A DNA stretch of 64,000 bases from assembly GCF_015476235.1 (NCBI RefSeq), contig NZ_CP064338.1, forward strand, positions 1,116,001-1,180,000, written 5' to 3'. Every line of letters starts with the position of its first letter. Positions within the stretch are counted from its first letter, which is position 1. Shown here in pieces: positions 11,397-64,000 of this stretch. The translations under genes and the position numbers were made by a program. The notes beneath the pieces were generated by a model. It saw only the letters and a program-made list of their open reading frames with translations, was not told where the DNA came from and did not search any database. The DNA is from Caldimonas thermodepolymerans. GTDB lineage: Bacteria > Pseudomonadota > Gammaproteobacteria > Burkholderiales > Burkholderiaceae_C.

Positions 11397-11402
11397 CATA
11401 AT
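11397..11402 (+). promoter_or_regulatory. Possible -10 element giving a leaderless transcript
   Basis: CATAAT ends eight bases before the ATG of the acetyltransferase at 11411. No Shine-Dalgarno lies between them, and transcription from this element would start almost on the ATG. No good -35 is seen. Visual call only. Confidence 0.3.
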
Positions 11403-11410
11403 CGCCGCCC

Positions 11411-11905
11411 ATGACCCTGCAGATCCGACCCGCGACACCGGCCGACGTGCCCGTGCTGGTGCAACTGATCACGGCCTTGGCCGAATACGAGAAGCTCACC
11501 CACCTGCTCGAGATCACGCCCGAGAAGCTCGAGACGCAGCTGTTCGGACCGCGCCCGCCGGCCGAGGCGGTGCTGGCCGAGGTGGGCCCGCCCGAGGCGC
11601 GCCGGGTGGCCGGCTTCGCGCTGTACTTCACCAACTTCTCGACCTTCCTGTGCAAGCCGGGGCTGTACCTGGAGGACGTGTTCGTGCTGCCCGAGCACCG
11701 CGGCCAGGGCATCGGCAAGGCCCTGCTGCAGCACCTGGCGGCGCTGGCGGTCGAGCGCGGCTGCGGCCGCTTCGAGTGGAGCGTGCTGGACTGGAACGAG
11801 CCGGCGATCCGGTTCTACCAGGCCATGGGCGCCTCGGTGCTGCCCGACTGGCGCATCTGCCGGGTCACCGGGGAGGCCCTGGAGCAGCTGGCCGGGCGCC
11901 GCTGA
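11411..11905 (+). CDS. GNAT family N-acetyltransferase
   Basis: 164 residues with a complete GNAT fold: IRPATPADVPVLVQLI (beta1-alpha1), LYLEDVFVLPEHRGQGIGKALLQHL with the acetyl-CoA pyrophosphate loop (R/Q-x-x-G-x-G, residues about 96-102), and WNEPAIRFYQAMGA (alpha4/beta6). The overall pattern, including FSTFLCKPGLYLEDVFV, resembles the diamine/spermidine N-acetyltransferase and thialysine acetyltransferase subgroup. It probably acetylates a small amine in the cytoplasm. The substrate is not proven. It is divergent from msbA and lacks a clear ribosome binding site (see the -10 entry). Function beyond acetyltransfer is inference. Confidence 0.85.
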   Translation: MTLQIRPATPADVPVLVQLITALAEYEKLTHLLEITPEKLETQLFGPRPPAEAVLAEVGPPEARRVAGFALYFTNFSTFLCKPGLYLEDVFVLPEHRGQGIGKALLQHLAALAVERGCGRFEWSVLDWNEPAIRFYQAMGASVLPDWRICRVTGEALEQLAGRR

Positions 11906-11991: not shown

Positions 11992-13716
11992 ATGACCGGG
12001 GATCACCGCCTCTACGAAGCCCTGTACAAGGAGTTCCGCTGGCACGTGCCGGCGGTGTTCAACATCGCCGAGGTGTGCTGCGGACGCTGGGCGCGCCAGG
12101 CGCCACAGCGCGTGGCCATCCTGTACGAGAACGAGGAGGGCCACCGCGCCCAGCTGCGCTACGGCGAGCTGCAGGCGCGCGCCAACCGGCTGTCGCACCT
12201 GCTCGAGCGCCTGGGCGTCGGCCCCGGCGACCGCGTCGCGATCGTGATGCCGCAGCGCTTCGAGACGGCGATCGCGCACATGGCGGTCTACCAGCTCGGG
12301 GCGGTGGCGATGCCACTGTCGATGCTGTTCGGCCCGGATGCGCTGGCCTACCGCCTGCAGGACAGCGAGGCCAAGGTCGCGATCGCCGACGCGGTCTCGG
12401 TCGGCCCGCTGCGCAGCGTGGCGGGCACCTGCCCGGCACTGCAGCACCTGGTCGTCGCCGACCGCGCGGCAGCTCCCGGCGAGGTGGACTGGGAGGCGGC
12501 GCTGGCGCGCGAATCCTCGGTCTACGTCGGGCGCGCCACCCATGCCGACGACCCGGCCGTGCTGATCTACACCAGCGGCACCACCGGCCCGCCCAAGGGC
12601 GCGCTGATCCCGCACCGCGCGCTGATCGGCAACCTGCCCGGCTTCGTGGCCAGCCAGAACTGGTTCGGCTTCCCGCTGCCGCAGGAGCTGTCGTCGCCCT
12701 CGGCCACGCCGGCCGACGACCAGGTGTTCTGGTCGCCGGCCGACTGGGCCTGGACCGGCGGCCTGATGGATGCGCTGTTGCCCACGCTGTACTTCGGACG
12801 CAGCATCGTCGCCTTCCACGGCCGCTTCAACGCCGAGCGCGCCTTCGAGCTGATGCAACGCTACCGCGTCACGCACACCTTCCTGTTCCCGACCGCGCTG
12901 CGCGCCATGATGAAGGCCGTGCCCGAGCCGCGCCGGCACTTCGACCTGGCGCTGCGCGCGATCATGAGCGCGGGCGAGGCGGTCGGCGACGCCGTGTTCG
13001 CCTACGGCCAGCAGCAGCTGGGCATCACGATCAACGAGATGTTCGGCCAGACCGAGATGAACTACGTGGTCGGCAACTGCAGCGCCTGCTGGCCGGCGCG
13101 GCCCGGCAGCATGGGGCGGCCCTATCCGGGGCACCGCGTGGCGGTGATCGACGACGAGGGCCGCGAGTGCCCGCCGGGCACGCCCGGCGAGGTCGCGGTG
13201 CATCGCTGCGACATCCACGGCGACCCCGACCCGGTGTTCTTCCTCGGCTACTGGCGCAACGACGGTGCGACGCGCGCCAAGTTCACCGGCGACCCGGACA
13301 ACTCCTGGTGCCGCACCGGCGACACCGCGGTGATGGACGAGGACGGCTACCTCTGGTACCAGGGCCGCAGCGACGACGTGTTCAAGGTGGCCGGCTACCG
13401 CATCGGGCCGAGCGAGATCGAGAACTGCCTGGTCAAGCACCCGGCGGTGGCCAATGCCGCCGTGGTCCCCAAGCCCGACCCGGAGCGCGGCGCGCTGGTC
13501 AAGGCCTACGTGGTGCTGGCGCCCGGCCACACCGGCGACGAGGCGCTGGTGCAGGCGCTGCAGCAGCACGTGCGTGGCCGGCTGGCGCCGTACCAGTACC
13601 CCAAGGAGATCGAGTTCATCGACGCCTTGCCGATGACCACCACCGGCAAGGTGCAGCGCCGCCTGCTGCGCCTGCGCGAGGAGGAGCGGGTTGCCGCCGC
13701 ATCATCCGCCCGTTGA
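11992..13716 (+). CDS. AMP-dependent acyl-CoA synthetase
   Basis: 574 residues from the ATG at 11992, preceded by AGGAG. It is an ANL-superfamily enzyme. It has the P-loop YTSGTTGPPKGAL (about 188-200), the adenylate motif EMFGQTEMNY, the hinge-region YQGRSDDVFKVAGYRIGP and the C-terminal catalytic Lys in TTTGKVQRR. It activates a carboxylic acid to acyl-AMP and then acyl-CoA. The shape (Acs-like N-terminus, SPADWAWTGGL, NxxSACWPARPGSMG) fits the medium-chain/short-branched acyl-CoA synthetase group rather than canonical acetyl-CoA synthetase, which is longer. It stands alone with its own likely promoter. The acyl substrate is unknown. Confidence 0.9.
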   Translation: MTGDHRLYEALYKEFRWHVPAVFNIAEVCCGRWARQAPQRVAILYENEEGHRAQLRYGELQARANRLSHLLERLGVGPGDRVAIVMPQRFETAIAHMAVYQLGAVAMPLSMLFGPDALAYRLQDSEAKVAIADAVSVGPLRSVAGTCPALQHLVVADRAAAPGEVDWEAALARESSVYVGRATHADDPAVLIYTSGTTGPPKGALIPHRALIGNLPGFVASQNWFGFPLPQELSSPSATPADDQVFWSPADWAWTGGLMDALLPTLYFGRSIVAFHGRFNAERAFELMQRYRVTHTFLFPTALRAMMKAVPEPRRHFDLALRAIMSAGEAVGDAVFAYGQQQLGITINEMFGQTEMNYVVGNCSACWPARPGSMGRPYPGHRVAVIDDEGRECPPGTPGEVAVHRCDIHGDPDPVFFLGYWRNDGATRAKFTGDPDNSWCRTGDTAVMDEDGYLWYQGRSDDVFKVAGYRIGPSEIENCLVKHPAVANAAVVPKPDPERGALVKAYVVLAPGHTGDEALVQALQQHVRGRLAPYQYPKEIEFIDALPMTTTGKVQRRLLRLREEERVAAASSAR

Positions 13717-13802
13717 GGGGCCGGTGCACGGCGCGCCGGCTTGCGGCACACTGGGGCCTTTCGCGTTCCCGCAACTCCCCCGCGACAGGAGGACCCGACG
13801 AG

Positions 13803-14867
13803 ATGGAATACACCGAGCTGGGCCGAAGCGGCCTCAAGGTGGCGAAGATCTGCCTGGGCACGATGACCTTCGGGCGACAGGTGAGCGAGGCCGACGCCCA
13901 TGCCTTGATGGACCATGCGGTGGCCCGCGGCGTGGACTTCCTCGACACGGCCGAGATGTACCCCGTGCCGCCCAGCGCCGAGACCCACACGCACACCGAA
14001 TCGATCATCGGGCGCTGGCTGGCCGCGCGCCCGGGCATGCGCCAGCGCATCGTGCTGGCGTCCAAGGTGGCGGGCCCGGTGCGCGGCTACCAGTGGATCC
14101 GCAACGCGAGCCCCGACCTGACCGGCGAGGACATCATCCGCGCCTGCGAGGACAGCCTGCGCCGCCTGCAGACCGACTACCTGGACCTCTACCAGATCCA
14201 CTGGCCGGTGCGCAACGTGCCGATGTTCGGCGCGATCTACTTCGACCCGGCGCGCGACAGGCCGGTCAGCTCGATCCATGAGCAGCTCGACGCGCTGGGC
14301 CGCCTGGTGCGCGACGGTAAGGTGCGCGCGATCGGGCTGTCCAACGAGACGCCGTACGGCGTGGCCGAGTTCGTGCGCGTGGCCGAGCAGCACGGCCTGC
14401 CGCGCATCGCCAGCGTGCAGAACCCGTACTGCCTGATCAACCGCAGCGTCGAGAACGGGCTGGACGAGACCATGTACCGCTACGGCGTGTCGCTGCTGGC
14501 CTACTCGCCGCTCGGCTTCGGGCTGCTGACCGGCAAGTACGACGACAGCGGCATCGAGCCGCAGGGAGGCCGGGCCCCCGGCCGCATGGCGCTGTTCGAG
14601 TCGATGCGCAAGCAGCGCTGGGGGCGTCCCGAGGCGCTGGCAGCGGCGCGCCGCTACAACGCGCTGGCGCGCGAGCACGGCATGACGCCGGCGCGCATGG
14701 CGCTGGCCTTCTGCTACACCAAGTGGCAGGTCGCCAGCACGATCATCGGCGTGACCAACCGCGAGCAGCTCGACGAGGACATCGACGCCTGGGGCACGAC
14801 GCTCAGCCCCGAGGTGCTGGCGGAGATCGACCGCATCCGCTGGGAGATCCGCGACCCGGCGCAGTGA
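13803..14867 (+). CDS. Aldo/keto reductase (Tas-like)
   Basis: 354 residues with the full aldo/keto reductase catalytic set: Asp and Tyr in DFLDTAEMYP, Lys in VLASKVAGP and His in LYQIHWP. NADP(H)-site residues are seen towards the end in SLLAYSPLGFGLLTGKY and the STIIGVTNREQLDED segment. It has the length and insertions of the E. coli Tas/YghZ type (AKR), which reduce aldehydes with NADPH. GGAGG (13789-13793) precedes the ATG at 13803 by about nine bases. The next gene follows 13 bases later, so the two may be co-transcribed. The physiological substrate is unknown. Confidence 0.9.
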   Translation: MEYTELGRSGLKVAKICLGTMTFGRQVSEADAHALMDHAVARGVDFLDTAEMYPVPPSAETHTHTESIIGRWLAARPGMRQRIVLASKVAGPVRGYQWIRNASPDLTGEDIIRACEDSLRRLQTDYLDLYQIHWPVRNVPMFGAIYFDPARDRPVSSIHEQLDALGRLVRDGKVRAIGLSNETPYGVAEFVRVAEQHGLPRIASVQNPYCLINRSVENGLDETMYRYGVSLLAYSPLGFGLLTGKYDDSGIEPQGGRAPGRMALFESMRKQRWGRPEALAAARRYNALAREHGMTPARMALAFCYTKWQVASTIIGVTNREQLDEDIDAWGTTLSPEVLAEIDRIRWEIRDPAQ

Positions 14868-55478: not shown

Positions 55479-56567
55479 TCAGATGCCCCGCGCGCGGCGC
55501 AGCGTCTTCATGCGGTCGGCGGTGCGCGCGGTGAGCGTGAGCAACCCGGCGCCGCGGCCGACCTCCAGCGTCACCTCGCGTTCGGCGCGGGGGTCGCTCC
55601 ACAGTCGCCGGTAGAACGCCTCCAGGCGGCCGACCGGCTCGCCGTCGAGCTTGAGGATCACGTCGCCCGGCTGCAGGCCGGCGGCTTCGGCCGGGCTGCC
55701 GGCCTGCACCCGCACCACGCGCACCAGGCCCTGGTGGTCGACGCAGTGCGCCCCCAGCCAGGCGCGCGTGCTGCGGCGCGAGGCGCCGTGGCGGCGCAGC
55801 TCGTCCTGCACCGCCTTGTACAGGTCGACCGGCACGAACATGTTGCCCGGCTGGTGGCGCCCGGGGCCGAGCGCCTCCATCACGAACAGCGAGCCGATGC
55901 CCAGCAGCTCGCCGCGCGCGTTGAACAGGCCGGCGCCGCTGTGGTCGGGGCGCGGCGGCACGGTGAAGATCGCGTCCTCGACGTGGTACTCCCAGTAACC
56001 GGAGAACGGCCGCTGCGACACCACCTGCGCGACGCTCATCGCGCCGTCCGGGCCGCCGGTGGCGATCACGTAGGGCTCCTCGGTGTCCAGCCCGCCGGAC
56101 TGCCCCAGCGGCGCGGGCACCAGCTGCACCGGCACCACCGGCTGCACCAGGGCGAAGCCGGTGGCCAGGTCGTACGCCACCACGCGGCCGGGCAGCGCGC
56201 GCCCGTCGGGCAGCAGCAGGTCGACCTTGTCGGCCTCCAGGACCAGGTAGCCGATCGTCAGCACCAGCCCCTGCGCGTCGATCACGACGCCCGAGCCCTG
56301 GCGTACCTGCCCGAGGCTTTCGCTGGAGGCCGCATCGGGCGCGGCCAGCGCGCGCACGCCGACCACCGAGGCGCTGACCTGGCGCAGCACCCGGGCCTGC
56401 TCGACCACGGCGGCTTCCTCCTCGTCGCCGGCGGGTGGTTGCTGCGCCGCCGCCGGCAGGCCCGCCCCGAGCAGCAGGCCCAGCACCAGGCCGGCGAAGC
56501 GCCGCCGGCGGGGGCGGGCAGGGCGCAGGCGACGGCGGAGCATGGCGGCGGCAGAGACTGGCAGCAT
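55479..56567 (-). CDS. HtrA/S1C-like PDZ protein with degenerate catalytic triad
   Basis: 362 residues from the ATG at 56565-56567, preceded by a GGGGGTG-type site. Later Met codons are possible. A basic stretch and a hydrophobic core (RRRRFAGLVLGLLLGAGLPAAAQQ) form a signal peptide. The S1C fold runs from about 90: GSGVVIDAQGLVLT, where the His of the usual NHV motif is Tyr107, and LATGFALVQ, where the usual catalytic Asp is Gly137. The Ser is kept in DHSGAGLFN (S210). A PDZ domain (about 285-345) has AGLQPGDVILKLDGEPV. Secreted to the periplasm, it may be a chaperone-like pseudoprotease. It diverges from the uracil operon. Confidence 0.82.
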   Translation of the reverse strand: MLPVSAAAMLRRRLRPARPRRRRFAGLVLGLLLGAGLPAAAQQPPAGDEEEAAVVEQARVLRQVSASVVGVRALAAPDAASSESLGQVRQGSGVVIDAQGLVLTIGYLVLEADKVDLLLPDGRALPGRVVAYDLATGFALVQPVVPVQLVPAPLGQSGGLDTEEPYVIATGGPDGAMSVAQVVSQRPFSGYWEYHVEDAIFTVPPRPDHSGAGLFNARGELLGIGSLFVMEALGPGRHQPGNMFVPVDLYKAVQDELRRHGASRRSTRAWLGAHCVDHQGLVRVVRVQAGSPAEAAGLQPGDVILKLDGEPVGRLEAFYRRLWSDPRAEREVTLEVGRGAGLLTLTARTADRMKTLRRARGI

Positions 56568-56780
56568 GGCACCCCCGGCGGCGGTCGATCGGGCGCAGCA
56601 TCGCGCGTCCACCTTTTCCCGGCGCGCGGCAGGGACAAGCGCGGGCGCGTTGCATCGAAGCGGTGCGGCCCCGTGCCGCCGGTGCGCCGGGAACGGGCCG
56701 GGCAGGCACCGGACTGGGGCGAGGGCGGGGCGGCCGGCCGGGTTCGTGCTGGCATCGGGGTTGCTTGAACGGGCGCAAAG

Positions 56781-56796
56781 TTGACCATCCGGTCAG
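56781..56796. promoter_or_regulatory. RutR-type operator upstream of the URC operon
   Basis: TTGACCATCCGGTCAG matches the published E. coli RutR consensus TTGACCANNTGGTCAA at 12 of 14 fixed positions. It lies 51 bases before the ATG of the first operon gene (56848), and a RutR-like regulator is encoded four genes downstream. No second copy was seen before the regulator or the transporter genes. This is a consensus match by eye. Binding is inferred. Confidence 0.75.
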
Positions 56797-56847: not shown

Positions 56848-58083
56848 ATGTCCGCCCACATCGTCCTGACGTCCCACCCCCGGCGCGACGCCTCGTCGCT
56901 GGACATCCGCTGGGGGGCTCCCACGGCGAAGGAGCGCGGTCCGCTGGTGGCCAGCCTGACCAACCCCGCGCACCGCAACGTGATCGGTTCGCACTCGGGC
57001 TCCTACGCGGTGTACCGGGCGCTGGCGGTGGCCTCGGGGGCGCTGAGGCGCGACCACAGGCCCGACCTCACCAACACCGCGCCGGCGGTCAACATCGGCC
57101 CCTTCCCCCAGTGGAGCGACCCGGACCTGATCGTCTCGCTGGACCCCTGGGGCCACATGGTCGCCACCGAGTTCGCCGAGCCGCTGGCCGCAGGCGTGGA
57201 CGTGCGGCCGACCATCGCGGTCACGCGCGCCCACATCAACATGCCCGAGCTGAAGGACGCGATCGCCGCGGGCCGGCTCAAGCCCGACGGCGAGATCCTG
57301 ATGGCCAACGGCGACGTGCGCGTGACCAAGGCCGCGATCGAGCCGGTGTGGTACCTGCCCGGGATCGCCAAGCGCTTCGGCGTCAAGGAAAGCGCGCTGC
57401 GGCGCTGCCTGTTCGAGCAGACCGCGGGCATGTTCCCGGAGCTGGTGACGCGGCCCGACCTCAAGGTCTTCCTGCCGCCCATCGGCGGCATGACGCTGTA
57501 CATGTTCGGCGACGTCACGCGCCTGGGGCGGCCGCAGACCCGCATCGCCTGCCGCCTGCACGACGAGTGCAACGGCTCGGACGTGTTCGGCTCGGACATC
57601 TGCACCTGCCGCCCGTACCTGGCGCACGGCATCGAGGTGTGCATCGAGATGGCGCAGCAGGGCGGCGTGGGCCTGGTGGTCTACAACCGCAAGGAAGGCC
57701 GCGCGCTGGGCGAGGTCACCAAGTTCCTGGTCTACAACGCGCGCAAGCGCCAGGAAGGCGGCGACCGCGCCGAGACCTACTTCCTGCGCACCGAGTGCGT
57801 CGCGGGCGTGCAGGACATGCGCTTCCAGGAGCTCACGCCGGACGTCTTCCACTGGCTGGGCATCACGCGCATCGACCGCTGGGCCTCGATGAGCAACATG
57901 AAGCACGGCGCGCTGACCGCCGCCGGCATCGAGGTGGTCGAGCGCGTGCCGATTCCCGAGGAGCTGATCCCGGCCGATGCGCGCGTCGAGATCGACGCGA
58001 AGAAGGCCGCGGGCTACTTCTCGACCTACACCCCCGACCCGTCGGAGCTGGCCGTGCCCAAGGGGCGCGGGCTGGACGAATGA
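56848..58083 (+). CDS. GTP cyclohydrolase II family protein, URC1-like
   Basis: 411 residues, about twice the length of E. coli RibA. The N-terminal ~215 residues (RWGAPTAKERGPLVASLTNPAHRN, GSHSGSYAVYRAL) are the extension typical of the URC1-type branch. The GCHII core follows: zinc Cys C241, C252 and C254 in the same spacing as RibA, YNRKEGRALGEV, the D323-x-R325 pair and K352. URC1 proteins take part in the uracil-degradation pathway first described in yeast, in which UMP-level intermediates are opened. GGAGGAGG precedes the ATG. Adjacent DUF1688 and UPRT genes favour this role over riboflavin synthesis, for which no other rib gene is nearby. Confidence 0.85.
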   Translation: MSAHIVLTSHPRRDASSLDIRWGAPTAKERGPLVASLTNPAHRNVIGSHSGSYAVYRALAVASGALRRDHRPDLTNTAPAVNIGPFPQWSDPDLIVSLDPWGHMVATEFAEPLAAGVDVRPTIAVTRAHINMPELKDAIAAGRLKPDGEILMANGDVRVTKAAIEPVWYLPGIAKRFGVKESALRRCLFEQTAGMFPELVTRPDLKVFLPPIGGMTLYMFGDVTRLGRPQTRIACRLHDECNGSDVFGSDICTCRPYLAHGIEVCIEMAQQGGVGLVVYNRKEGRALGEVTKFLVYNARKRQEGGDRAETYFLRTECVAGVQDMRFQELTPDVFHWLGITRIDRWASMSNMKHGALTAAGIEVVERVPIPEELIPADARVEIDAKKAAGYFSTYTPDPSELAVPKGRGLDE

Positions 58084-58093
58084 GGGAGGCGGG

Positions 58094-59359
58094 ATGAGCC
58101 ACACCCCCCACGCGCTGGCCCACGGCCCGGGCTGGCACACGCCGGTGCCGCCGCAGCACCCCGCCGCGCCGCTGCTCGGCGCCGAGGCGGTGCGCACGCA
58201 CTGCGCCGAGGTGATGGCCTGGGTGGAAGCCGGGCATTCGGCCCATTTCAGCTGGCACCCCGAACGGCTGGCCGACACCGCGGCCTATGTCGTCGACACC
58301 ATCCGGCGGCACTACCCGTCGCTGGCGGTGCCGTACCACAGCCGCTGGCGCCACTTCGAGGCAGGCGGCGTGGACCGCTGGGCGCGGCTCGCCGGCGAGG
58401 CCGGGCTCGACGCGGACGTGCGCGAGCGGGCGCGGGTGCGCATCGACCTGGTGATCCCGAGCGTGCTGCTCGATGCCGGCGCCGGCCCGGACTGGCGCTA
58501 TGTCGACGCCGTGGCCGGCCAGACGCTGGCGCGTTCCGAAGGGCTCGCGGTGGCAAGCCTGGACCTGTTTGCATCCGGGGCGTTCTCGGCGCATCCCGCG
58601 CAGCCGCTGCGCAGCGAGGCGGCGGCGCTGGCGCGCATGACGCCGCAGCGCCTGGCCGCCGGCTTCCAGGTGCGCGAGGACAACCCGCTGGTGGGGCTGG
58701 AAGGCCGCGCCGCGCTGTTGCGCCGGCTCGGCGAGGTGGTACAGGCCACGCCCGCCGTGTTCGGCCCGGCGGGGCGGCTCGGGCACCTGCTGGACTTCCT
58801 CGAGGCCCACGCGACGGACGGCCGCATCGAGGCGGGCCTGGTGCTGGCCACGCTGCTGCGCGCGCTCGGGCCGGTGTGGCCGGGCCGCATCGGGCTGGAC
58901 GGCGTGTCGCTCGGCGACTGCTGGCGCCATCCGGCCGCCAGCGGCGGGCTGGTGCCTTTCCACAAGCTGACCCAGTGGCTGACCTACTCGCTGCTCGAGC
59001 CGCTCGAGGACGCGGGGTTGGTGGTCACGGGGCTGGATGCGCTGACCGGGCTGCCCGAGTACCGCAACGGCGGCCTGCTGCTGGACCTGGGCCTGCTGCA
59101 GCCACGCGATCCCGGGTTCTTCGAGGCGACCTGGACCGTCGACAGCGAGGCCGTCGTCGAATGGCGCGCCGTGACCGTGATCGCGCTGGACCGCCTCGTC
59201 GCCGAGGTGCGCCGCCGGCTGGGCCTGACCGAAGTGCAGTTTCCGCTGGCGCGGGTGCTGGAAGGCGGCACTTGGGCGGCCGGGCGGCGTGCCGCGGCCG
59301 AACGCCGCCCCGGGGGCGGCCCGCCCCTGCGCCTCGTCAGCGACGGCACCGTGTTCTGA
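58094..59359 (+). CDS. DUF1688 protein, URC4-like
   Basis: 421 residues, ten bases after the URC1-like gene. Conserved-looking blocks: RTHCAEVMAWVEAGHSAHFSWHPERL, YPSLAVPYHSRWRHFEAGGVDRW, DLVIPSVLLDAGAGPDWRY, LDLFASGAFSA, NPLVGLEGRAALLRRLG, GGLVPFHKLTQWLTYSL and VDSEAVVEWRAVTVIALDRL. No transmembrane segment or signal peptide. The domain is DUF1688 (URC4 in yeast), genetically required for URC uracil use but of uncertain chemistry. Its position between URC1 and UPRT homologues is the strongest argument for function. The C-terminal RRPGGGPPLRL stretch is variable. Confidence 0.85.
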   Translation: MSHTPHALAHGPGWHTPVPPQHPAAPLLGAEAVRTHCAEVMAWVEAGHSAHFSWHPERLADTAAYVVDTIRRHYPSLAVPYHSRWRHFEAGGVDRWARLAGEAGLDADVRERARVRIDLVIPSVLLDAGAGPDWRYVDAVAGQTLARSEGLAVASLDLFASGAFSAHPAQPLRSEAAALARMTPQRLAAGFQVREDNPLVGLEGRAALLRRLGEVVQATPAVFGPAGRLGHLLDFLEAHATDGRIEAGLVLATLLRALGPVWPGRIGLDGVSLGDCWRHPAASGGLVPFHKLTQWLTYSLLEPLEDAGLVVTGLDALTGLPEYRNGGLLLDLGLLQPRDPGFFEATWTVDSEAVVEWRAVTVIALDRLVAEVRRRLGLTEVQFPLARVLEGGTWAAGRRAAAERRPGGGPPLRLVSDGTVF

Positions 59360-59374
59360 CCCACAGGAGCAAGC

Positions 59375-60004
59375 ATGACCTTCGTCCACGTCGTCGACCA
59401 CCCGCTGCTGCAGCACAAGCTCACCTACGTGCGCAGCGAGGACACCACCACCGACAACTTCCGCCGCCTGGTGCGCGAGATCGCCGCGATGCTGGCCTAC
59501 GAGGTGACGCGCGACCTGCCGACCGAGCGGATCACGATCCGCACGCCGGTGGCCAGCTGCGAGGCACCGGTGATCAGCGGCAAGAAGCTGTGCCTGGTCT
59601 CCATCCTGCGCGCCGGCAACGGCATGCTCGACGGGATGATCGAGCTGCTGCCCGGCGCCCGCATCGGCCACATCGGCCTGTACCGCGACCCCGAGACGCT
59701 GGAACCGGTGGAGTACTACTTCAAGGTGCCCGACGACATCCAGGACCGCCTGGTCATCGTGGTCGACCCGATGCTGGCCACCGGCAACTCGGCCATCGCC
59801 GCCCTCAGCCGCCTCAAGGAGGTGGGCGTGACCAGCCTCAAGCTGGTCAACCTGCTCGCCTCGCCCGAGGGCATCGAGGCGGTGCGGGCCGCACATCCGG
59901 ACGTGCCGATCGCGGTGGCGGCGATCGACGAGCGGCTCAACGAGCACGGCTACATCGTGCCGGGCCTGGGTGATGCGGGCGACCGCATGTTCGGCACCAG
60001 GTAG
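59375..60004 (+). CDS. upp: Uracil phosphoribosyltransferase
   Basis: 209 residues, full length. [28 protein letters not shown] is the typical start. [12 protein letters not shown] and the PRPP-binding [21 protein letters not shown] are intact, as is the uracil-site end [16 protein letters not shown]. It converts uracil and PRPP to UMP. In this operon it would provide the first step of the URC pathway, which works on uridine-level phosphates, rather than simple salvage. 15 bases after the DUF1688 gene, with ACAGGAG before the ATG. Confidence 0.95.
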
Positions 60005-60019
60005 CCCCGGGCGACCGCG

Positions 60020-60760
60020 ATGAGCCAGGCCGCACCCGCACCGCGACCCGCCGCGTCCTCGCCGCACCGCGGCGGGTCGCACGCGCACGCCGGGACCGGG
60101 CGGCGCCCACCGCGCGAGGGCGGGGCGGCCGCGCCCAAGGGCCGCATCCGCCAGGCCGCCGAGGCCGGCATCCTGAAGGCCGCCGAGACGGTGTTCGCGC
60201 GGGCCGGCTTCGGCGGCGCGACGATGGCCGAGATCGCCGCGCGCGCCGGGCTGCCCAAGGCCAACCTGCACTACTACTTCCGCAGCAAGCAGGCGCTGTA
60301 CCGCGCGGTGCTGCTCAACATCCTGGCGCTGTGGCTGTCCGACACCGACCGCATCACCGAAGACGCCGACCCGCGCGAGGCGCTGTCGCACTACGTGCGC
60401 GCCAAGATGCGCTGGACGGCCGAGCGGCCGGACGCCTCGCGCACCTTCGCCAACGAGCTGCTGCACGGCGCCGGCGAGATCGGCGACATCCTGCGCACCG
60501 AGCTGCGCGCGCTCGTCGAGGCAAAGGCCCGCGTGATCGATGCCTGGATCGCGCAGGGGCGCATGGCCCCGGTGGACAGCACGCACCTGTTCTTCACGAT
60601 CTGGGCGGCGACCCAGACCTATGCCGATTTCGAGTCCCAGGTGTGTGCGGTGCTGGGCACGGCGCACCTGGACGAGGCGCAGCTCGAGCGCGCCACCGAC
60701 CACGTGCTCGGGTTCGTGCTGCGCGGCTGCGGGTTGACACCGCTGCCGGCGGGCGGCTGA
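60020..60760 (+). CDS. TetR family regulator, RutR-like
   Basis: 246 residues. The first ~40 residues are Pro/Arg/Gly-rich. The TetR helix-turn-helix follows (ILKAAETVFARAGFGGATMAEIAARAGLPKANLHYYFRSKQALY). The ligand domain has ASRTFANELLHGAGEIGDILRTELRALVEAKARVIDAWIAQGRMAPVDSTHLFFTIWAATQTYADFESQV, which keeps the block order of E. coli RutR, a uracil-responsive regulator of the rut operon. It is embedded in the URC operon 15 bases after upp, and the operator-like site at 56781 is its likely target. Uracil would then induce the pathway, as for RutR. This is inference. Confidence 0.88.
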   Translation: MSQAAPAPRPAASSPHRGGSHAHAGTGRRPPREGGAAAPKGRIRQAAEAGILKAAETVFARAGFGGATMAEIAARAGLPKANLHYYFRSKQALYRAVLLNILALWLSDTDRITEDADPREALSHYVRAKMRWTAERPDASRTFANELLHGAGEIGDILRTELRALVEAKARVIDAWIAQGRMAPVDSTHLFFTIWAATQTYADFESQVCAVLGTAHLDEAQLERATDHVLGFVLRGCGLTPLPAGG

Positions 60761-60826
60761 GTGGGTACGCTTCTTGCGCTCGTCCGGCCCCGACATCTTC
60801 CTCCCCACCCCCGAAAGGACCCAGCG

Positions 60827-61831
60827 ATGACCACTTCCACCCGTCGTACCCTGCTTGCCGCCGGCCTGGCGCTCGCGGCTGCCTGTTCCGGACTGGCCAC
60901 CTTGCCCGCCCATGCCCAGGCGAAGCTCAAGGTGGCGGGCATCTACACCGTGCCGGTCGAGCAGCAATGGGTCTCGCGCATCCACAAGGCGCTCAACGCC
61001 GCCAAGGCACGCGGCGAGATCGAGTACGTGTTCTCCGAGAACGTCGCCAACGCCGACTACGAGCGCGTGATGCGCCAGTACGCCGAGGCCGGCCACCAGC
61101 TGATCCTGGGCGAGGTGTTCGGCGTCGAGGCGGCGGCCCGCAAGGTCGCGCGCGACTACCCGAAGACCGCCTTCCTGATGGGATCGTCGGGCAAGCCGCA
61201 GGCGCCCAACTTCTCGGTGTTCGACAACTACATCCAGGAGCCGGCCTACCTCACCGGCATGATCGCCGCCGGCATGAGCAAGACCGGCCACATCGGCATG
61301 GTGGGCGGCTACCCCATCCCCGAGGTCAACCGCCTGATGCACGCCTTCATGGACGGCGCGCGCGAGATCAACCCCAACGTGAAGTTCACGGTGAGCTTCA
61401 TCGGTTCCTGGTTCGACCCGCCCAAGGCGAAGGAAGCCGCCTTCGCGATGATCGACAAGGGCGCCGACGTGCTCTACGCCGAGCGCTTCGGCGTCTCGGA
61501 CGCGGCCAAGGAGCGCGGCAAGCTCGCGATCGGCAACGTCATCAACACCCAGGACCAGTACCCCGAGACCGTGGTGGCCTCGGCGCTGTGGAACATGGAA
61601 CCCACCGTCGATGCCGCGATCGCCAAGGTCAAGGCCGGTCAGTTCACCGCCGAGGACTACGGCCCGTACTCGATGATGAAGCACAAGGGCTCGGAGCTCG
61701 CCCCGCTGGGCACCTTCGAGGGCAAGGTGCCGGCCGAGGTGATGGCCAAGGTGCGCGCCCGCGAGAAGGCCATCCTCGAGGGCAAGTTCACCGTGAAGGT
61801 CAACGACAGCGAGCCGAAGTCCTCCAGGTGA
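60827..61831 (+). CDS. BMP-family ABC transporter substrate-binding protein
   Basis: 334 residues from the ATG at 60827 behind GAAAGG. A Tat-like or Sec signal peptide (RRTLLAAGLALAAACSGLATLPAHAQ) is cleaved after AHA. The mature protein has KVAGIYTVPVEQQWVSRIHKAL, GEVFGVEAAARKVARDYPKTAF, MGSSGKPQAPNFSVFDNYIQEPAYLTGMIAAGMSKTGHIGMVGGYPI and NPNVKFTVSFIGSWFDPPKAKEAA. BMP/PnrA proteins bind purine or pyrimidine nucleosides in several bacteria. Being in the URC operon, a uracil- or uridine-type ligand is likely. It is coupled to the ATPase gene by a GTGA overlap. Confidence 0.88.
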   Translation: MTTSTRRTLLAAGLALAAACSGLATLPAHAQAKLKVAGIYTVPVEQQWVSRIHKALNAAKARGEIEYVFSENVANADYERVMRQYAEAGHQLILGEVFGVEAAARKVARDYPKTAFLMGSSGKPQAPNFSVFDNYIQEPAYLTGMIAAGMSKTGHIGMVGGYPIPEVNRLMHAFMDGAREINPNVKFTVSFIGSWFDPPKAKEAAFAMIDKGADVLYAERFGVSDAAKERGKLAIGNVINTQDQYPETVVASALWNMEPTVDAAIAKVKAGQFTAEDYGPYSMMKHKGSELAPLGTFEGKVPAEVMAKVRAREKAILEGKFTVKVNDSEPKSSR

Positions 61832-63384
61832 CCGCCACGACCTCCGCGGCCGCGCCGGTCCTGCGCCTGCACGGCATCACCAAGCGCTTCGGCGCGTTGG
61901 TGGCCAACGACGACATCTCGCTGGACCTCGGGCCCGGCGAGGTGCTCGCGCTGCTCGGCGAGAACGGCGCGGGCAAGAGCACGCTGGTGTCCATCCTGTT
62001 CGGCCACTACGTGGCCGACGCCGGGCACATCGAGGTGTGCGGCCGGCAGCTGCCGCCCGGCCAGCCTAAGGCCGCGCTGGCCGCGGGCATCGGCATGGTG
62101 CACCAGCACTTCACGCTGGCCGACAACCTCAGCGTGCTGGACAACGTGCTGCTCGGCACCGAGCCGCTGTGGCGGCCGTCCTCGCAGCGTGCGGCGATGC
62201 GCGAGCGCCTGCTCGATGCCGCGCAGCGCTTCGGCCTGCAGGTGCGGCCCGAGGCGCGCGTGGGCGACCTGTCGGTGGGCGAGCGCCAGCGCGTCGAGAT
62301 CCTCAAGGCGCTGGTGCGCGGCGCCCGCATCCTGATCCTGGACGAGCCCACCGCGGTGCTCACCCCGCAGGAAAGCGAGTCGCTGTTTGCGACGCTGCAG
62401 CAGCTGGTCGCGCAGGGGCTGTCCATCGTCTTCATCAGCCACAAGCTCGACGAGGTGCTGCGCGTCTCGCATCGCGTCGCGGTGCTGCGCGCAGGCCGGC
62501 TGGTCGCGGTGCGCGAGGCGGCCGGCTGCAGCAAGGCGGAGCTGGCCGAGCTGATGGTGGGCCGCAGCGTGCGCATGCCCCGGCGCGAGCGCCGCGCCCC
62601 CGGCGACGAGGTGCTGGTGCTGGAGCGCGTGAGCGTGCCGGGCCACCCGCCGCTGCACGAGGTGGACCTGCGCGTGCGCGCCGGCGAGGTGGTCGGCATC
62701 GCCGGCGTGGCCGGCAACGGGCAGGAGACGCTGGCCGGGCTGCTGTGCGGCCTGCTCCCGCCCCGGCAGGGGCGGCTTGCGGTGGCCGGCCAGGCGCTGC
62801 CCGCCACGCCTTCGGCCTGGGTGCGCGCCGGCGTGGCCCGCATCCCCGAGGACCGCCATGCGGTCGGCGTGGTCGGCGACCTGCCGCTGTGGGAGAACGC
62901 GATTGCCGAGCGCCTGCACACGACGGCCTTTTCCCGCTTTGGCTTCGTGCGCCAGCGCGCCGCGAGGCAGTTCGCCGCCGACCTGGTGCAGCGCTTCGAC
63001 GTGCGCGGCGGCGGGCTGGACGCGCCGGTGCGGGCGCTGTCGGGCGGCAACATGCAGAAGCTCATCCTCGGCCGGGCGCTGGCCGTCGGCGGGCCGCGCC
63101 CGCCGGTGCTGGTGGTCGCGAACCAGCCCACCTGGGGCCTGGACGTGGGCGCGGTGGCCTACGTGCACCAGTGCCTGCTCGACGCGACCGTGCAGGGCGC
63201 GGCCGTGTTGCTGATGTCCGAGGACCTGGACGAGATCCTGGCCCTGTCCGACCGCGTCGCGGTGATCCACCACGGGCGGCTCGGCCCGGCGCGCCCGACC
63301 GGGGACTGGACGCTCGCCGCGCTGGGCCTGGCGATGGCCGGCGCCGATGCACCCTCGGCGCAGGAGGTGCGCGATGCGGCTTGA
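61828..63384 (+). CDS. ABC transporter ATP-binding protein, two nucleotide-binding domains
   Basis: 518 residues from a GTG at 61828 that overlaps the previous stop as GTGA. Two ATPase halves: the first has Walker A GENGAGKST, signature LSVGERQRVEILKAL, Walker B ILILDEPTAVLT and switch His ISHKLDE. The second has GVAGNGQETL in place of a canonical P-loop, signature LSGGNMQKLILGRAL and ANQPTWGLD (degenerate Walker B), as usual in the RbsA/YufO type that power BMP transporters. It energises a nucleoside-type importer with the following permease. RbsA-like asymmetry is normal and not a defect. Confidence 0.9.
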   Translation: MTATTSAAAPVLRLHGITKRFGALVANDDISLDLGPGEVLALLGENGAGKSTLVSILFGHYVADAGHIEVCGRQLPPGQPKAALAAGIGMVHQHFTLADNLSVLDNVLLGTEPLWRPSSQRAAMRERLLDAAQRFGLQVRPEARVGDLSVGERQRVEILKALVRGARILILDEPTAVLTPQESESLFATLQQLVAQGLSIVFISHKLDEVLRVSHRVAVLRAGRLVAVREAAGCSKAELAELMVGRSVRMPRRERRAPGDEVLVLERVSVPGHPPLHEVDLRVRAGEVVGIAGVAGNGQETLAGLLCGLLPPRQGRLAVAGQALPATPSAWVRAGVARIPEDRHAVGVVGDLPLWENAIAERLHTTAFSRFGFVRQRAARQFAADLVQRFDVRGGGLDAPVRALSGGNMQKLILGRALAVGGPRPPVLVVANQPTWGLDVGAVAYVHQCLLDATVQGAAVLLMSEDLDEILALSDRVAVIHHGRLGPARPTGDWTLAALGLAMAGADAPSAQEVRDAA

Positions 63385-64000
63385 ACTGCGCCCGCAGCCG
63401 TCGCTGGCCTGGCAGCTGGCCGCGCCCTTCGTCGCGGTGCTGGCCACGCTGCTGCTCGGCGCCGGGCTGGTCACCTGGGCGGACGCCCCGGTCGGTCGTG
63501 CCTACGCGCTGCTGTTCGAAGGCGCCTTCGGCAGCCGCTTCGCGATCACCGAGACGCTCACCCGCGCCACGCCGTTGATCCTCACCGGGCTGGCCGCGGC
63601 CGTGGCCTTCCGCGCGCGGCTGTTCAACATCGGCGCCGAAGGGCAGCTGTACGCCGGGGCGCTGGCGGCGATCGCCGTCGGCGGCCAGCATGCCTCGGGC
63701 GCGATCGACCTGCCGCTGGCGCTGCTGTTCGTGCTGATGGTCGCGGCCGGGGCGCTGGCCGGCGCGCTGCTGCTGCTCGGGCCTGCATGGCTCAAGGTGC
63801 GGCTGGGGGTCGACGAGGTGGTGACCACGCTGCTGCTCAACTTCATCACGCTGCTGTTCGTCTCGATGATGCTGGACGGGCCGATGAAGGACCCGCTCGC
63901 GATGGGCTGGCCGCAGAGCGTGGCGATGATCCCGGAGCTGGAGTTCTCGCGCCTGCTGGAGCGCTCGCGCGTGCACAGCGGGCTGCTGCTGGCCTGCGCG
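63374..64000 (+). CDS. ABC transporter permease, partial (C-terminus outside window)
   Basis: Starts at ATG 63374, eleven bases inside the end of the ATPase gene, behind AGGAGG. 209 residues are visible before the window edge. The protein has about five hydrophobic helices: AAPFVAVLATLLLGAGLVTWA, TETLTRATPLILTGLAAAVAFRARLFNIGAEGQLYAGALAA (the YufP/BMP-permease signature FNIGAEGQ) and LGVDEVVTTLLLNFITLLFV. It forms the channel with a second permease that should follow beyond the window. It extends the URC operon. Confidence 0.9.
   Translation, partial: MRLELRPQPSLAWQLAAPFVAVLATLLLGAGLVTWADAPVGRAYALLFEGAFGSRFAITETLTRATPLILTGLAAAVAFRARLFNIGAEGQLYAGALAAIAVGGQHASGAIDLPLALLFVLMVAAGALAGALLLLGPAWLKVRLGVDEVVTTLLLNFITLLFVSMMLDGPMKDPLAMGWPQSVAMIPELEFSRLLERSRVHSGLLLACA

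Follow-up and report, generated by a model that had tools for sequence, protein, structure and literature searches.

Uracil degradation by the URC route is best described in yeast. According to the accessible parts of the published accounts, URC1 and URC6 of yeast convert uracil to 3-hydroxypropionate and ribosylurea and URC4 converts ribosylurea to urea (PMC7530994), while urg1-urg2-urg3 of S. pombe are clustered and induced by uracil (PMC2174524, PMC3869809, PMC7530994). Bacterial URC operons are already in print, as far as the accessible part of the source goes (PMC3869809). A bacterial URC operon as such is already known, and the locus described here, from Caldimonas thermodepolymerans, is a further example. 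It lies at the end of the window, by which we mean the whole analysed stretch of 64,000 bases (C1:1116001-1180000; the genome is a single contig of 3,858,501 bases). We consider it quite probable that the locus is a nine-gene operon for cytosine/uracil uptake and for uracil breakdown by the URC route, with URC4 acting as a ribosylurea-phosphate glycosidase. Gene content, homologies, conservation of the operator and of ligand-binding residues, and the predicted fold of URC4 (Pfam family DUF1688) were computed in this analysis. The mechanism of URC4 is the part worth testing: the family is still labelled 'protein of unknown function' in Pfam, though the URC route has long been known from yeast.

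The predicted fold of URC4 and its probable relation to QNG1

The second gene of the operon had been assigned to DUF1688 by the first-pass annotation, which was made from the sequence alone, and the profile search places its product inside PF07958 (482.8 bits against a cut-off of 25; E 1e-144). At least 586 relatives were confirmed among genomes representing 84,980 species, one genome each. The best 80 of these are referred to as named loci, in which a gene was counted as present when tblastn gave a match of at least 45% identity. URC1 is present in 76 and uracil phosphoribosyltransferase (UPRT) in 75 of them, and 68 hold URC1-URC4-UPRT in the same order and on the same strand. Because of this ordered triad and the E-value of DUF1688, the shared cluster of these genes is not chance.

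For structure prediction, 66 DUF1688 proteins were used (that of the window and 65 from the named loci), leaving out 11 likely near-duplicates, whose similarity was a matter of judgement, one sequence with an internal stop and three further Cupriavidus sequences. The resulting AlphaFold2 (AF2) model had a mean predicted local distance difference test score (pLDDT) of 92.8 and a predicted template modelling score (pTM) of 0.91. Foldseek comparison of this predicted model with the PDB returned 11 chains at E-values below 0.001, and all 11 are QNG1/DUF2419 (E 2.8e-9 to 4.4e-7, probability 1.00, 15-18% identity). Template modelling (TM) scores were 0.70-0.77 by target length and 0.58-0.60 by query length, the best match (E 2.8e-9) reaching 0.76 and 0.60, respectively; rank 12 was an unrelated protein at E 0.84. 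The matched chains, 7u07, 7u91, 7ulc and 7ugk among them, are queuosine-5'-phosphate N-glycosidase, 7ugk from man and the others from a second source, presumably a bacterium. In a viral structure library, no match to the model fell below E 0.12.

At the level of sequence, PF10343 (Q_salvage) was the second most frequent Pfam family among the 66 DUF1688 proteins, matching 13 of them in two collinear regions; when ten members were scanned singly, six matched it. Alignment of the DUF1688 profile with three QNG1 sequences by hhalign gave E 0.00099 over 216 collinear columns, compared with E 0.14 over 20 columns for a URC1 control. A profile made from the three QNG1 sequences scored the DUF1688 proteins at 8.8 bits at most, with a median of -0.5 (62 of 66 reported), which is a slight signal next to the controls: the best of 1320 shuffled sequences reached 3.3 bits (745 reported), reversed sequences -0.7 and URC1 -1.1. 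The PDB contains the QNG1 mutants K199C and D231N (7u5a, 7ulc), the latter complexed with queuosine-5'-monophosphate. Lys199 and Asp231 sit in FYK199RAQ and LTAFAD231YK, and the counterparts in DUF1688 are FHK291LTQ and LTGLPE322YR, with a spacing of 31 residues versus 32 in QNG1. K291, which retains the lysine of QNG1, and E322 are both invariant in 66 of 66 DUF1688 proteins and are candidate active-site residues by this alignment.

Several results speak against a QNG1-type URC4. Single and profile searches of DUF1688 against PDB sequences found nothing relevant and no QNG1, so that the link to QNG1 rests on the predicted fold first and on the weak sequence signal second. PF10343 scores in the 66 proteins were at most 16.6 bits, under the gathering score of 25; the best E-value was 0.0061, for one protein with 66 scanned, and the DUF1688 protein of the window had no PF10343 match. 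The hhalign probability was just 21.6 despite the E-value of 0.00099, and with the smaller alignment A1 the comparison gave E 0.015 and a probability of 3.0. Finally, the position of Asp231 is Glu in all 66 proteins. Since DUF1688 does not reach the PF10343 cut-off and carries Glu at this position, we read it, from model and alignment, as a sister family of QNG1 and place it outside QNG1 itself.

Judged by the predicted fold and the aligned motifs, URC4 is most likely a nucleotide N-ribohydrolase that would free urea from ribosylurea 5'-phosphate. More specifically, we think it probable that URC4 belongs to the QNG1 superfamily as a nucleotide N-ribohydrolase whose active site has Glu in place of Asp and which converts ribosylurea 5'-phosphate to urea and ribose 5-phosphate. 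A fold of the QNG1 type tells the superfamily and not the substrate, and together with the Glu at the Asp231 position it would also suit a URC operon in which DUF1688 does not cut ribosylurea and is, for example, a brake returning UMP (uridine 5'-monophosphate) to uracil, or serves some other late step. We regard such a role as unlikely given the steady pairing with URC1 and UPRT, the co-occurrence with urea-degrading enzymes described below and the assignment of yeast URC4 to the step from ribosylurea to urea in the accessible part of the source (PMC7530994).

QNG1 itself was also searched for. The Q_salvage profile matched none of 398 genomes sampled from the phylum, and the controls were also unmatched, so this result says nothing on absence; single QNG1 queries found nothing in phages or viral contigs. 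The conjugative plasmid pAZI09 of Azospira sp. I09 (L135:1-5147) carries a QNG1-like gene annotated as 'queuosine salvage family protein', with a DEAD/DEAH helicase, a DUF4031 gene, unknown genes and a DNA methyltransferase as neighbours, and a relative on a Variovorax plasmid (L136) adjoins a gene for an ATP-binding protein. The setting on pAZI09 is, as a guess, that of a defence or DNA-modification island more than of queuine salvage. Used as a query in 399 genomes of the order, the plasmid protein gave three partial matches, which were not used.

URC1, the proposed pathway and the fate of urea

Gene 1 scores 778.2 bits against the NCBIfam model PRK07198 (cut-off 403), and its N-terminal domain is PF12471 in Pfam (284.9 bits). 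The closest PDB relatives, 7eev and 7ej3 (E 4.2e-187), are 68-69% identical over nearly the whole length; these entries, also reached from an AF2 model of gene 1 (pLDDT 84.3), are titled 'Structure of UTP cyclohydrolase' and 'UTP cyclohydrolase'. By analogy, the titles of these relatives suggest that gene 1 may open the ring of a uridine nucleotide. In an alignment of 53 URC1 sequences (the window protein and 52 from the named loci), C241, C252, C254, Y279, D323 and R325 are invariant and align with positions of E. coli GTP cyclohydrolase II (RibA, 2bz0) that we take to be the zinc cysteines and catalytic residues.

The PF00925 match of gene 1 and its NCBIfam name, 'GTP cyclohydrolase II', would also be expected if it were the ordinary GTP cyclohydrolase II of riboflavin synthesis, in a cluster unrelated to uracil degradation. 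We consider this extremely improbable. Every matched RibA model scores gene 1 far below its cut-off (TIGR00505, 48.5 versus 205.85; PRK00393, 55.8 versus 148), the genome has another gene, at C1:2713520, that matches the GTP cyclohydrolase II family better (119.7 bits), the PDB relatives bear the title UTP cyclohydrolase, and gene 1 has PF12471 as an additional domain. We rejected ordinary RibA on the low RibA scores and the separate RibA-type gene; the URC1-like reading of the first-pass annotation survives these searches, with PRK07198 passed and the RibA cut-offs failed.

For a URC operon with a QNG1-type URC4, we infer substrates, reaction order and induction as follows. The BMP-type ATP-binding cassette (ABC) importer would take up a pyrimidine, cytosine deaminase would convert cytosine to uracil, and UPRT would convert uracil to UMP. 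URC1, as a zinc cyclohydrolase from the GTP-cyclohydrolase-II superfamily whose substrate is probably uridine triphosphate (UTP), formed by phosphorylation, would open and strip the ring and, if it resembles GTP cyclohydrolase II, leave ribosylurea 5'-phosphate and a three-carbon fragment. URC4/DUF1688 would then cleave the N-glycosidic bond in the fashion of QNG1 to give urea and ribose 5-phosphate, and a urease encoded elsewhere would turn urea into ammonia. The RutR-like repressor would occupy the operator before URC1 and depart on binding uracil.

The reaction of GTP cyclohydrolase II yields pyrophosphate and a 5'-monophosphate, and QNG1 cuts the base from the ribose of a nucleoside 5'-monophosphate, an action that fits the QNG1 complexes in the PDB. 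If URC1 acts on UTP like GTP cyclohydrolase II, its product would be ribosylurea 5'-phosphate, the kind of substrate expected for a QNG1-like enzyme; the two hints from the PDB, UTP cyclohydrolase and QNG1, would thus join into one scheme. Ribosylurea reportedly accumulates in yeast urc4 mutants. Work on the yeast route is usually phrased with UMP while the PDB titles say UTP, a discrepancy that counts against the scheme. A dehydrogenase near URC1 in one named locus (L058) was tried as an enzyme of the three-carbon branch and dropped, as an open reading frame (ORF) on the opposite strand stands between the two.

The genome encodes the alpha subunit of urease away from the operon (174.5 bits). 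Urea amidolyase had no match over the cut-off in the genome and was rejected as the urea step there. The first-pass annotation had raised the question of whether other uracil routes are missing, and RutA (161 versus 498 bits) and dihydropyrimidinase (73 versus 393 bits) indeed fall below their curated cut-offs in this genome; with these sub-threshold matches, the rut and reductive pyd routes were rejected as far as the two enzymes tell, the other genes of the reductive route not having been searched.

DUF1688 was found in 26 of 398 genomes sampled from the phylum and, above the cut-off, in 11 of 300 from the order (12 at E 0.001). All over-cut-off carriers from both samples made up a set of 33 genomes (a weak match, G633, was left out), which was compared with 36 control genomes spaced evenly through the same phylum sample (those whose G number ends in 5, passing over four that carry DUF1688); urease matches below 35 bits (e.g., G256, G075) were scored as none. 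Of the 33 carriers, 30 have urease or urea amidolyase (29 have urease), as against 16 of the 36 controls (15 have urease), with a Fisher p-value of 4e-5 in a statistic that ignores relatedness. Restricting both sets to genomes of at least 3.5 Mb, and the controls also to a completeness of at least 90, gave 30 of 31 versus 12 of 21 (p 6e-4, likewise ignoring relatedness). Three of the 33 carriers have neither enzyme over threshold, which does not favour urea as the product.

Regulator, operator and importer

The TetR-family protein of the operon carries the YcdC/RutR C-terminal domain and matches the E. coli RutR chain 3loc (Table 1). As described in the accessible part of the source, RutR occupies a palindromic site of about 16 bases, leaves it when uracil binds, and contacts uracil through W77, W167, Q171, Y97 (via water) and Q179' (PMC10891134). 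All five residues (W77, Y97, W167, Q171, Q179) are identical in the TetR of the window and in 21 of 21 named TetR loci. The protein scores under the RutR equivalog cut-offs (TIGR03613, 197.7 versus 368; PRK15008, 172.4 versus 230), which tells against a strict RutR assignment.

With up to two mismatches to TTGACCAnnTGGTCAA, which we take to be the RutR consensus, two sites were found in the window (56781 and 10705) where shuffling predicts 0.04. The former, TTGACCATCCGGTCAG at 56781-56796, has two mismatches. The operator was then surveyed in 81 loci, our own and the 80 named ones, with TetR presence defined by a tblastn match. Of the 22 TetR-bearing loci, 20 have the exact core TGACC-N4-GGTCA, in each case upstream of URC1, and the remaining two (L050, L055) keep 9 of 10 core bases; among the 59 loci without a tblastn match to TetR (1.05 Mb) the core occurs in none. 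In total, the 22 TetR-bearing loci contain 21 core copies in 443 kb, while 59 other orderings of the five core letters reach 5 copies at most. For TetR loci, the fractions obtained with random windows of these loci ranged from 0.003 to 0.047, partly since such windows can overlap the site. Bases flanking the core are conserved within Cupriavidus and variable in other genera, where the core holds. Because the loci are related, the pairing of operator and TetR is one conserved association seen repeatedly and not 20 independent events.

The extra copy (L002:14148) belongs to our own locus, in the fetched stretch L002, whose first 10 kb are identical to the end of the window. This second exact site (L002:14147-14162, window-equivalent 68147) sits at the start codon of a short ORF on the minus strand (13680-14162) and may be chance. 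Inside the operon there is one exact operator site, the one before URC1. From these homologies, the TetR protein is likely a uracil-responsive repressor at TTGACCATCCGGTCAG. A bacterial cassette that supplies this likely repressor and its operator could be handled as one unit, both for study and for switching.

The putative importer consists of a BMP-type binding protein (PF02608) with a neighbouring ATPase and two BPD_transp_2 permeases. The start of the binding protein resembles a signal sequence by eye, and the protein does not reach the cut-offs of the NCBIfam 'B6' BMP models. A BMP match of at least 45% identity is present in 14 of the 80 named loci, and the importer is therefore an optional add-on to URC loci; its absence from most of them weakens the case for uptake as part of the route. 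BMP proteins bind various nucleosides and bases, and the nearest PDB relative is the 'Atrazine periplasmic binding protein' 6pi5 (E 1.2e-36), which we assume binds guanine. This ligand range and the 66 loci without BMP would also be compatible with an importer and regulator that serve purines or nucleosides, with the URC genes as passengers under the same control. We judge this quite unlikely: all 21 named TetR loci retain the five RutR residues that contact uracil, the sole exact operator site within the operon precedes URC1, and a cytosine deaminase of the same family is present in 24 of the 80 loci.

Operon layout, related loci and comparison with known systems

ORF analysis gives seven co-directional genes at 56848-64000 with intergenic gaps of 10, 15, 15 and 66 bases and two overlaps, as the first-pass annotation had described. 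Its gene identities are borne out in Pfam and NCBIfam (DUF1688 in Pfam only), and the gene families support its reading of the locus as a URC-type module for uptake, sensing and degradation, the substrate of the importer being predicted. Its claim that the operon is complete within the window did not hold: beyond the edge, a second permease and a cytosine deaminase (ending at window-equivalent 66665) follow on the same strand, for nine genes in all (Table 1).

Some gene starts allow a choice. The DUF1688 gene has a longer in-frame ORF from 57977, yet the ATG at 58094 is preceded by GGAGGCGGG; the BMP gene has an alternative longer in-frame GTG start at 60761; and permease 1, which overlaps the ATPase gene, starts at 63347 or 63374. 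Divergent from the operon, the minus strand of the window at 55479-56612 encodes a trypsin-like/PDZ protein related to HtrA/DegP, above the Pfam cut-offs and under the NCBIfam HtrA-family cut-offs.

Table 1. Coordinates and supporting matches of the operator and the nine operon genes (window positions unless marked C1 or L002).
Feature	Position	Strand	Evidence
RutR-type operator TTGACCATCCGGTCAG (candidate)	56781..56796	.	core TGACC-N4-GGTCA; 51 bases from URC1 ATG
URC1-type pyrimidine-nucleotide cyclohydrolase	56848..58083	+	PRK07198, PF12471, PDB 7ej3/7eev
URC4/DUF1688, proposed nucleotide N-ribohydrolase	58094..59359	+	PF07958 E 1e-144; AF2 fold
Uracil phosphoribosyltransferase (upp)	59375..60004	+	TIGR01091 275.5 bits, cut-off 208.35
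RutR-like TetR-family regulator	60020..60760	+	PF08362 E 3e-49; 3loc E 1.3e-43
BMP/PnrA-type ABC substrate-binding protein	60827..61831	+	PF02608 E 5.6e-40
ABC transporter ATPase, two ABC domains	61828..63384	+	PF00005, two stretches
ABC permease 1	63347..64000 (window-cut; true end window-equivalent 64441)	+	PF02653 E 2.2e-38, whole protein L002:9347-10441
ABC permease 2, outside window	C1:1180441-1181388	+	BPD_transp_2
Cytosine deaminase, subfamily PRK07572, outside window	C1:1181391-1182665	+	829.8 bits, cut-off 438

All nine genes are present in 10 of the 80 named loci, those of Caldimonas caldifontis and nine Cupriavidus, and the same gene order in other Burkholderiales, which the first-pass annotation had proposed to look for, is thereby found. 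C. caldifontis is the nearest named relative among the matches listed (77% in DUF1688), from which records very near the window may be excluded. The best 80 also include Cyanobacteria and one record labelled Planctomycetota. At least two of the 12 loci lacking the triad, L093 and L103, stop close to the gene cluster. Three loci (L078, L080, L089) have DUF1688 without a URC1 match in the fetched flank; URC1 may be elsewhere in these genomes, or DUF1688 may have a second role.

Variant loci add further genes. In L065 (7252-8508), L073, L082, L090, L102, L106 and L111, a gene of the metalloenzyme superfamily precedes URC1 in the same orientation; the distance to the URC1 match is within 300 bases in six of these loci and about 3 kb in L073. 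The protein reads like phosphopentomutase (the L065 protein is the one scanned by Pfam), which suggests from homology that nucleosides feed the URC route in those loci. A gammaproteobacterial metagenome-assembled genome (L075:10001-18969) has a rearranged URC locus in which URC1 and a BMP-type importer are encoded on the opposite strand; between URC4 and URC1 lies a dCMP/cytosine-type deaminase (11399-11860) of a Pfam family different from that of the cytosine deaminase in the window's operon. Among cyanobacterial loci, L083, L092, L095, L113 and L115 have a homologue of NMT1/THI5-type ABC binding proteins (that of L083 was scanned by Pfam), and L094, L095, L100, L113 and L115 have distant BMP-type importer matches. 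The NMT1/THI5-type protein, the L075 deaminase and the phosphopentomutase-like gene are hints that fit pyrimidine use.

In plasmid annotation, relatives are named 'URC4/urg3 family protein' in 8 of 12 listed records, and C. metallidurans CH34 has a relative of DUF1688. The URC4-QNG1 link and the regulator-operator pairing were not found in the part of the open literature that was searched, the 'UTP cyclohydrolase' literature and subscription journals being outside this search. The fold, two candidate active-site residues and a defined pair of products make URC4 directly assayable. If correct, a QNG1-type URC4 would fill the remaining gap in the URC pathway of fungi as well as bacteria and would make URC4 a superfamily relative of the vertebrate queuine-salvage enzyme; the cassette would tie pyrimidine degradation to QNG1, the queuine-salvage enzyme of animals.

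Compared with QNG1/DUF2419, DUF1688 is alike in its predicted fold and in the collinear motifs F[YH]K..Q and LT...[DE]Y[KR]; it differs in being 15-18% identical, below the PF10343 gathering score and about 80-100 residues longer, in the change from Asp231 to Glu, and in the expected substrate. Gene 1 is 68-69% identical to UTP cyclohydrolase (7eev, 7ej3); with E. coli RibA (2bz0), URC1 shares what we take to be the zinc-cysteine and catalytic positions, but it has the extra PF12471 domain and misses the RibA cut-offs. The regulator is of the same family as E. coli RutR, with the same five uracil-contact residues and, by our assumption on the E. coli letters, common operator half-sites, but it misses the RutR equivalog cut-offs and stands beside URC1-URC4-UPRT and not rutA-G. 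L. kluyveri URC1/URC4/URC6 and S. pombe urg1-urg2-urg3 belong to the same three protein families as the genes here, as the accessible parts of the sources describe them (PMC2174524, PMC3869809, PMC7530994). According to the same sources, a putative zinc-finger regulator belongs to the fungal locus and L. kluyveri uses urea amidolyase, whereas the Caldimonas operon has a RutR-like repressor, a BMP ABC importer and a cytosine deaminase, with urease elsewhere in the genome.

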